This document shows, in pieces, positions 14,633-50,914 of a stretch of DNA of 54,849 bases. The notes under the pieces are model-generated. The model was given only the letters and a program-made list of their open reading frames with translations, searched no databases and was not told where the DNA came from. The stretch covers positions 1 to 54,849 of the forward strand of contig CALQLF020000010.1 of NCBI GenBank assembly GCA_943331345.2, read 5' to 3'. Made by a program: the position numbers and the translations under genes. The DNA comes from Candidatus Planktophila lacus (GTDB lineage Bacteria; Pseudomonadota; Gammaproteobacteria; Steroidobacterales; Steroidobacteraceae). The stretch's first letter is position 1; each line of letters opens with the position of its first letter.

Positions 14633-16027
14633 CTACTCCACCATGAAAATGGTGGCGGGCTGCTCGAGCCGTTCTTTCAGCGCCTGGACCATCGCGGCGG
14701 CATCGAAGCCATCCACGAAGCGGTGATCGAACGACGAAGACAGGTTCATCATCCGGCGCACCACCACGGCACCCCCTACCACGACAGGACGCTCCACCGC
14801 CTTGTTCAGGCCGATGATGGCGACTTCGGGCAGGTTGAGCACCGGGGTGCTGACAATTCCGCCCAGCTTGCCGAGGCTGGTCACGGTGATTGTACTGCCG
14901 CCGAGCTCCTCGCGGCGGGCGGTGTTGTTGCGGGCCGCCGCAGACACCCGCCGCACCTCCGCCGCCACCTGCCCCAAGGTGAGTGCCTCGACATGGCGGA
15001 TCACGGGGACCTTCAGGCCGTCCGGGGTTTGCGTGGCAACGCCGATATGCACCCCAGCGTGGCGCAGGATGACGTTTCGAGCGGCGTCGTAGTGCGCGTT
15101 GCACTGAGGGAAATCGCGCAGCACCCGCGCCAGCGCCGCCATGACGAACGGCAAGTAGCTATAGGCTTCCTCGCGTGGACGGCGCGCGTTCAGATGCAGG
15201 CGCAGGGCCTCCAAAGCCGTGACGTCCACTTCTTCCACATATGAGAAGTGCGGTGCCGTGCGCTTGGCCTGCTCCATGCGCTGCGCTATGACCCGCCGCA
15301 CCCCGATGACCGGAATTTCAGTGATGCCGTTCGTGGAAGCAAGCTTGCTCGCGACCGTCGGCAGCAAGCTGCCTCCCACATTGGCAGCGACCGTCGGCAG
15401 CAAGCTGCCTCCCACATTGGAAAATGTACTTGTAGGAGCGAGCTTGCTCGCGACAGCCCGGTCGAGGTCTGTGCGCAATACACGCCCACCCACACCGGTC
15501 GCGGGGAGTGTGGCGAGATCCACCCCTGCCTCCCGCGCCCGCCGGCGTGTAGCCGGAGAAGCCATCACCCGGCCTGACCGTGATTTGAGCAGCAATTCGC
15601 CGTGGCAGGTTGAAGAGTCGGGAGCAAGCTCCCTCCCACAAAGAGGCTCATCAGTACCAAGTGGCTCTTCTCTGCCAATGGGCTCCTCTCTGCCAGCCAC
15701 CTGCTCTCTGCCAGCAGATTCCTCTCTAGCCACTTCTTCTGTGGGAGGCAGCTTGCTGCCGACTAGATCAAACACTACCAACACGGAGCCCACGGCCACC
15801 GCATCGCCCGGGACGCCGGCCAAGCTGACCACACGGCCACTCACCGGCGAGGACACCTCCACCACGGCCTTGTCGGTGGAAAGTTCCGCGAGCGGCGCGT
15901 CTTCCTGCACCCACTCGCCCACGGCCACCTTCCACGCCACGATTTCGGAACTGACCGTGCCTTCGCCAAGGTCTGGTACCTTGAACTCGAAGCGATGCGA
16001 CGCCGCTGCCGAACTTGCGCCATTCAT
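14633..16027 (-). CDS. bkdB: Branched-chain 2-oxoacid dehydrogenase E2
   Basis: A 464-residue dihydrolipoyl acyltransferase core of the branched-chain complex. It passes the acyl group from E1 to CoA. The lipoyl domain is at about 12–87 with lipoyl-lysine K53 (LSTDKAVVEVSSP). The E1/E3-binding domain is at about 154–192 (MASPATRRRAREAGVDLATL). The catalytic domain is at about 237–464 and ends with the active-site FDHRFVDGFDAA. The two linkers are unusual. Linker 1 (88–153) carries six-residue repeats of the type GREEPL. Both linkers encode pieces of the REP-like palindrome (VGSKLPPT, VASKLAPT, VGGSLLPT). The ATG at 16027 overlaps the E1 beta stop (ATGA), which decides the start against a longer frame. 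No E3 gene is nearby. Confidence 0.93.
   Translation of the reverse strand: MNGASSAAASHRFEFKVPDLGEGTVSSEIVAWKVAVGEWVQEDAPLAELSTDKAVVEVSSPVSGRVVSLAGVPGDAVAVGSVLVVFDLVGSKLPPTEEVAREESAGREQVAGREEPIGREEPLGTDEPLCGRELAPDSSTCHGELLLKSRSGRVMASPATRRRAREAGVDLATLPATGVGGRVLRTDLDRAVASKLAPTSTFSNVGGSLLPTVAANVGGSLLPTVASKLASTNGITEIPVIGVRRVIAQRMEQAKRTAPHFSYVEEVDVTALEALRLHLNARRPREEAYSYLPFVMAALARVLRDFPQCNAHYDAARNVILRHAGVHIGVATQTPDGLKVPVIRHVEALTLGQVAAEVRRVSAAARNNTARREELGGSTITVTSLGKLGGIVSTPVLNLPEVAIIGLNKAVERPVVVGGAVVVRRMMNLSSSFDHRFVDGFDAAAMVQALKERLEQPATIFMVE
15333..15454. repeat. Four REP-like units inside bkdB linker 2
   Basis: Units at 15333–15355 (diverged), 15357–15380, 15393–15416 and 15431–15454 share the core AGCAAGCT flanked by GTCG and CTCCNACA. 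They encode residues about 192–232 of E2 in frame. Two of them lie in a tandem duplication of 36 bp (15351–15386 and 15387–15420), which is 12 codons and gives NVGGSLLPTVAA followed by NVGGSLLPTVAS. The same family occurs between genes at 24110, 34270 and 50821. Confidence 0.9.
15617..15763. repeat. Two REP-like units and 18-bp repeats, linker 1
   Basis: A unit at 15617–15641 (GTCGGGAGCAAGCTCCCTCC) and one at 15740–15763 in the other orientation flank a run of about five degenerate 18-bp repeats (about 15644–15735) that encode AREESA, GREQVA, GREEPI, GREEPL and GTDEPL. All of it lies in E2 linker 1. The unit at 15617 with its flanks is identical over about 31 bp to the unit directly after ntrX (34373–34403, other strand). 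Confidence 0.88.
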
Positions 16028-24109: not shown

Positions 24110-24132
24110 GTAGGAGGGAGCTTGCTCCCGAC
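24110..24132. repeat. REP-like unit between priA and EF-hand gene
   Basis: One unit (GTAGGAGGGAGCTTGCTCCC core) lies between convergent genes, 20 bases after the priA stop. On the minus strand it follows the EF-hand stop as TAAGAGTCGGG, the same junction seen at the end of the cytochrome b561–YceI gene. A hairpin here could serve as a bidirectional 3'-end structure. Confidence 0.85.
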
Positions 24133-34269: not shown

Positions 34270-34397
34270 GTCGCGAGCAAGCTCGCTCCCACAAGGGACA
34301 TGAGTCGCGAGCAAGCTCGCTCCTACAAGGGGCATGGGTCGCGAGCAAGCTCGCTCCTACAACGAAGCTTGCTTGTGGGAGGGAGCTTGCTCCCGAC
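34270..34397. repeat. Cluster of four REP-like units
   Basis: Three head-to-tail units (34270–34294, 34304–34328 and 34338–34362) have an exact 34-bp period and the core CGAGCAAGCTCG. A fourth unit in the other orientation (34373–34397) has GGAGCTTGCTCC. They fill the whole gap between two convergent genes and touch both stop codons within 4 bases. Inverted pairs could form a long hairpin that ends or protects both transcripts. Confidence 0.9.
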
Positions 34398-50820: not shown

Positions 50821-50914
50821 GTCGGCAGCAAGCTGCCTCCCACATTTGTATCCGCCACTTGTAGGAGCGAGCTTGCTCGCGACTCTTCCTGTCGGCAGCA
50901 AGCTGCCTCCTATA
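50821..50914. repeat. Cluster of three REP-like units after aroE
   Basis: Units at 50821–50844 (GTCGGCAGCAAGCTGCCTCC), 50860–50883 (other orientation, GAGCGAGCTTGCTCGC) and 50891–50914. A fourth, diverged unit follows near 50921–50940 (GTCGCCAGCAAGCTCATCAC). The first begins 2 bases after the aroE stop. The remaining 133 bases to the DUF1800 gene hold no clear signals apart from a GGAGGT ribosome site. Confidence 0.88.

Follow-up and report, generated by a model that had tools for sequence, protein, structure and literature searches.

In-frame REP palindromes in the linkers of a branched-chain-type dehydrogenase E2 gene and in other genes of the same genome

REPs reportedly seldom overlap protein-coding regions (PMC12306157). 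Intragenic GTAG and CGTC REPs were described in 2013 in ORFs of known proteins, termed 'REP-decorated' (Di Nocera et al., PMC3733652). In that paper, the repeats occur in ORFs as units, dimers and clusters, with tRNA synthetase genes among those affected; flexible linkers or loops are proposed as neutral insertion sites, GTAG repeats are associated with transposase genes, and intragenic R. conorii repeats are equated with RPE-4 and RPE-6. For P. fluorescens SBW25, a REP doublet is proposed as the replicative unit in PMC3116915. Since intragenic REPs, and the neutrality of linkers and loops as their sites, already appear in PMC3733652, the locus described here is of a known kind and represents a dense further case. 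A sequence-only reading of this locus had set coding palindromes in a REP-type family apart from those of Rickettsia; novelty on this point is not supported, given the intragenic GTAG/CGTC REPs of that text. The main text of the paper, the supplement of which lists the ORFs, does not contain dihydrolipo, lipoyl, acyltransferase or dehydrogenase, and no report of REPs in E2 linkers was found among the matches listed in the open-access literature.

The window (the whole stretch of 54,849 nucleotides analysed) contains bkdB, the product of which has 464 aa from a likely ATG at 16027, in an ORF that reaches 16165. E1 genes lie upstream on the same strand. The E2 protein has lipoyl (residues 14–85), E3-binding (154–188) and catalytic (2-oxoacid_dh, 235–462) Pfam domains; linker 1 runs from the lipoyl to the E3-binding domain and linker 2 from the E3-binding to the catalytic domain. 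The gene, its repeats and, for contrast, REPs located between genes are as follows.

14633–16027, minus strand: bkdB, branched-chain-type 2-oxoacid dehydrogenase E2 (dihydrolipoyl acyltransferase), assigned from Pfam domains and the neighbouring E1 genes
15336–15354, plus strand: REP unit u1, linker 2, antisense, VASKLAST, residues 225–231, one mismatch; counterpart present in the sister genome G001
15351–15420: tandem repeat, 36-nt period, 1.9 copies, 100% matches, carrying u2 and u3
15358–15376, minus strand: REP unit u2, linker 2, sense, VGGSLLPT, residues 218–224; counterpart absent from G001
15394–15412, minus strand: REP unit u3, linker 2, sense, VGGSLLPT, residues 206–212; counterpart absent from G001
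15435–15453, plus strand: REP unit u4, start of linker 2, antisense, VASKLAPT, residues 192–198; degenerate counterpart in G001
15618–15636, minus strand: REP unit u5, linker 1, sense, different frame, CGRELAPD, residues 131–137
15657–15732: 18-nt tandem repeat of linker 1, flanked by u5 and u6, encoding EEPxGR-like units; not REP
15744–15762, plus strand: REP unit u6, start of linker 1, antisense, VGSKLPPT, residues 89–95
24113–24131, plus strand: REP between genes
34271–34396: four-REP cluster between genes
50822–50910: three-REP cluster between genes

The sequence-only reading had described six in-frame palindrome units in bkdB, in both orientations and confined to the linkers, and on these points it was borne out. 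All six were found where it had placed them, the reading frame is open throughout with the units included, and none (0/6) lies inside a Pfam domain, two being in linker 1 and four in linker 2. The protein keeps every column that does not vary among 28 orthologues. In an AlphaFold2 model based on 28 aligned sequences, pLDDT is below 50 at residues 98–150 and 199–227. The unit at 15744 lies just ahead of residue 98 in this model, and a predicted helix (185–196), the last of the binding domain, ends within the unit at 15435.

Units u1 and u2 form an inverted doublet, 22 nt from start to start, and u3 is an exact 36-nt tandem copy of u2. Within bkdB the unit is read in three frames rather than a single one, giving VASKLAPT, VASKLAST or VGSKLPPT in one, VGGSLLPT (twice) in another and CGRELAPD (once) in the third. 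An extragenic array, L096, which contains four REPs, none in a called gene, can be aligned with that of linker 2 over 122 nt at 78%. A REP origin was also considered for the low-complexity part of linker 1 (15657–15732), and was rejected, as a comparison with 817,849 bases gave this segment no further match.

With two mismatches or fewer allowed, the window contains 14 REP matches, compared with a mean of 0.12 and a maximum of 2 in 100 shuffles; the eight that are not in bkdB fall in gaps between large ORFs. Repeated or inverted 12-mers cover 189 bases of bkdB, against a median of 0 and a maximum of 72 in 57 orthologues (57 of 65 loci were used, eight lacking a full ORF being dropped). At 464 aa, the product compares with 375–463 aa in these 57 orthologues.

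The assignment to a REP-type family, as proposed from the locus itself, holds for the genome. There are 371 exact matches in the source genome, or 418 with one mismatch or fewer, and the reversed pattern, searched as a control, gives 0. The consensus is TGT[G/A]GGAGnnAGCTTGCTnnCGAC, in which the nn arms mostly co-vary (CG/CG, GC/GC, GG/CC); the conserved block is approximately 25 nt with a GTGG/GTAG end. Copies number 19, 30 and 22 in the three other genomes of the genus searched, and the pattern is absent from 56 sampled genomes in 24 other genera of the same family. Of 202 sampled copies in the source genome, 160 are extragenic, the six in bkdB being exceptions. The variable arm pair is complementary in 191 of 201 copies (one of the 202, at a stretch end, was dropped), comprising 39/42 in genes and 152/159 outside; the end tag is GTAG in 79 and GTGG in 109. 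Neighbouring REPs less than 150 nt apart are in opposite orientation in 79 of 123 pairs by raw count, and their commonest spacings are 22, 27–28 and 41–42 nt. Inverted doublets of 22 nt occur in genes (5) and outside them (10).

A MetRS segment in the congener G002, FASKLTPGLDD (L168, 2681–2699), fits the REP pattern but for one mismatch. The segment is presumably conserved and the match is probably due to chance, a caution for pattern-based REP counts. REP density is uneven in the source genome, with 0 copies in 100 kb of contigs C2 (1–60000) and C8 (1–40000) (L127–L131) and 24 in the first 20 kb of contig C19 (1–20000, L141), where a transposase gene also lies. This unevenness resembles the repeat deserts of P. 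fluorescens, as described in PMC2718517.

The C19 transposase gene, one in number, is IS200-like (Y1_Tnp, PF01797, RAYT-like), a 174-aa ORF with REPs on both sides. Its PF01797 match scores 27.8 bits against a cut-off of 23 and spans positions 7–79 of the 121 in the profile. At L159 119–2980, the RAYT-like gene adjoins clpX- and clpP-looking genes, with a REP array between. Among the four genomes of the genus, a RAYT-like gene was detected in the source genome only (E <= 0.001; G002 is 75% complete). It coincides with high REP copy number, a correlation drawn from one lineage, and the three congeners with no detected RAYT still hold 19–30 REP copies.

REPs within genes were counted in a sample of 1,217,849 bases (38% of the source genome), with genes called by a crude caller from codon usage only. 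With one mismatch or fewer, 42 of 202 REPs fall in called genes, or 39 conservatively; three copies (L183 twice, L185 5253) are doubtful because they are near a gene start. The counts are 29/110 in sample 1, which was chosen around listed REPs, then 1/32 and 12/60 in samples 2 and 3, which were chosen by contig number. Reading frames thus contain between roughly a seventh and a fifth of the REPs sampled (13/92 by contig number; 42/202 overall). The same procedure applied to 250 kb of E. coli K-12, using an E. coli REP motif, places 0 of 39 REPs in genes, the caller being less sensitive on this genome because only 75% of that DNA is called coding.

The 42 in-gene copies are spread over 17 genes, two of them doubtful. 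Sixteen have a Pfam match, one below the curated cut-off, and one gene is without a match. The 2-oxoacid dehydrogenase set comprises bkdB, two further E2 genes and an E3 gene, in which one exact and two degenerate units (two mismatches each), spaced by 36 nt, lie between the lipoyl and FAD domains. Four E2 matches (E <= 1e-40) are present in the source genome and three have REPs in linkers, the exception being the SucB-type E2. REPs are also located between the two ABC domains of one protein, between the domains of TilS, and, as a five-REP array, between exosortase and DUF3485 in a single gene. In IleRS, the REP is inside the class I synthetase domain. Further carriers encode an alcohol dehydrogenase (ADH), a PLP decarboxylase, a trehalase, PGI, a phosphopantetheinyl transferase (PPTase) and an ABCF-like protein, the last being the match below the cut-off. 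REPs within Pfam domains, as in IleRS, indicate that linkers are not the sole tolerated site. There are also two N-terminal cases, possibly untranslated. At L185 5253–5271 (contig C29), the REP match encodes the apparent hydrophobic core of a lipoprotein signal peptide (VGIRAVVGASLLATLLVACG); this candidate signal peptide belongs to a TPR protein next to an exosortase gene.

Among the 42 in-gene copies, the unit is read in five of its six frames; the sixth, which was not seen, has a stop in the GTAG variant. There is consequently no single REP peptide, the unit being simply open in most frames, and the suggestion that it is a defined spacer-peptide module was not upheld. Same-orientation neighbours are separated by multiples of three in all eight pairs within genes, as against 13 of 36 outside (Fisher p 0.0011), although the eight are not all independent because three (36 nt) come from the one exosortase array. 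The in-gene spacings are 30, 33, 36 (four times), 57 and 84 nt. This pattern fits in-frame duplication under selection against frameshifts.

Comparison with congeners reveals that the units differ at the same sites. Neither of the outcomes set to refute the sequence-only reading was obtained: orthologues lack the units or differ in them, and the genome search gave 371 exact copies. The bkdB gene of G001 also carries one REP; counted from the sequences, linker 1 is longer by 24 residues and linker 2 by 23 residues in the source genome. The bkdB orthologue of G003 (L054, 3139–4263) retains the lipoyl and catalytic domains but lacks the latter half of the E3-binding domain and almost the whole of linker 2. 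The E3 orthologue in G003 has an Ala/Pro-rich linker in place of the REPs. The E3 orthologue in G001 (L178, frame opening at 1483) apparently lacks the N-terminal lipoyl domain, which is kept in the source genome and in G003. At shared sites, the source genome has three ADH units and two decarboxylase units where G003 has one of each, and four units in the ABC protein where G001 has three (a comparison made without G003). The PDH-type E2 has two units in the source genome, three in G002 and none in G003, with one in G001 that contains a mismatch and is in another frame. REP copy number is therefore not always highest in the source genome. Trehalase orthologues gave no match in the three relatives.

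In the stretches sampled from the relatives, REPs in called genes number 5/23 in G001 (ABC protein, RibD and one unnamed protein), 6/34 in G002 (PDH-type E2, MetRS and phosphopantetheinyl transferase, one being the chance match) and 1/22 in G003 (decarboxylase). The REP-bearing ADH of G003 and bkdB of G001 lie outside those stretches. In four of five orthologue pairs, similarity is higher in REP columns than in the rest of the gene (0.90–0.96 vs 0.71–0.87, from few columns); bkdB is the reverse case (0.67 vs 0.84). The higher similarity may reflect recopying or constraint, and counts against plain neutrality, which does not predict it.

These observations are probably best accounted for by a mobile, RAYT-linked REP family, which persists at places that can accommodate a spacer in frame and later expands through duplication on the spot. 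The GTAG/GTGG-type family would multiply as a non-autonomous mobile element, most likely via the RAYT-like transposase of C19. Insertions that break the reading frame or the fold would be lost, and insertions of a multiple of three in linkers or surface loops would persist, perhaps neutrally, as short spacers. Such survival may be possible because the unit is free of stops in five or all six frames. Local in-frame tandem duplication would then increase some of the copies within genes. In bkdB, u1 and u4, common to the sister genome G001, would be the older pair, and u2, u3 and the linker 1 units could be gains in the source species or losses in G001.

The occurrence of REPs in three of the four E2 genes and in one E3 gene could reflect more than tolerance. 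REPs in E2/E3 linkers might be kept adaptively because they alter how far the lipoyl and binding domains can reach. In sample 1, 11 genes carry REPs, of which 4 encode an E2 or E3, and the longer linkers of bkdB relative to G001, together with a product longer than any of the 57 orthologues, are in keeping with such tuning. Nevertheless, IleRS, ADH, PGI and PPTase hold units in domains of no known reach function, the bkdB of G003 has almost no linker 2, the SucB-type E2 is free of REPs, and long disordered linkers are the expected target of neutral insertion; selective tuning is considered unlikely. An associated idea, that REPs make E2/E3 linkers evolvable by in-frame steps of 30–57 nt between sister species, some of them selected for swinging-arm reach, is given a similarly small chance.

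The palindromes might instead act in mRNA or DNA, as a hairpin or a gyrase or RNase site, with the peptide as a by-product. Linker 2 RNA does fold strongly (-68.3 kcal/mol, z -5.3; its two parts z -3.5 and -5.8) and the arms remain complementary in genes, but intact arms are explicable by recent copying alone, and u5 and u6, which stand singly, show no more stable folding than shuffled sequences (z 0.26 and -0.41), so that a general RNA role is not supported; we regard a nucleic-acid function as decidedly improbable. The source is a draft assembly of 184 contigs, in which gene decay or misassembly might place units outside any functional protein. However, the three E2 domains and the E1 genes are intact, the invariant columns are kept, and separately assembled relatives have units at the same sites, on which ground an assembly artefact was rejected; decay or artefact is very improbable. 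That Ala/Pro-rich codon repeats mimic REPs by chance or convergence is scarcely credible: one such case was met, the MetRS segment, but the shuffles of the window, the reversed-pattern control and the 12-mer control, with far fewer repeated bases in the 57 orthologues, led to rejection of chance.

If the RAYT-linked family explains the units, then in-gene REPs, seen alongside congeners in which these sites vary, make the conversion of a mobile palindrome into protein sequence observable. In such genomes, a linker peptide can be of transposon origin, a point of importance for annotation and for linker studies. In-gene REPs also bear on the use of REPs as extragenic markers.

The REPs of this genome are like those in PMC3733652 in occurring in ORFs as units, dimers and clusters, in including a tRNA synthetase case and in their association with a transposase. 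For the present REPs, the spacing in multiples of three and the variation in copy number at shared sites between congeners are measured as well. A likeness to the coding palindromes of Rickettsia, suggested earlier from bkdB, is upheld by in-frame copies in unrelated protein genes (17 in the sample); Rickettsia palindromic elements (RPE) are likewise mobile palindromes in frame in unrelated proteins. RPE are approximately 150 bp in the first report (as cited in PMC10969869), in contrast to the conserved block of approximately 25 nt here, and the present REPs differ further in their GTGG/GTAG end and in having most copies outside genes. The REPIN of P. fluorescens SBW25 (PMC3116915) similarly combine inverted REP doublets with RAYT association; overlap with genes there is 14 of the 1,067 most abundant 16-mers, compared with 42/202 here, by different methods. 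The BIME-type mosaic arrays of PMC2817692 also contain REPs of alternating orientation, and the linker 2 array aligns with an extragenic array of this genome; unlike BIME-type arrays, however, the bkdB array is part of a reading frame. To these systems, the present locus and its relatives add a dense case, repeated hits in E2/E3 genes and a set of congeners in which the sites are seen to change.
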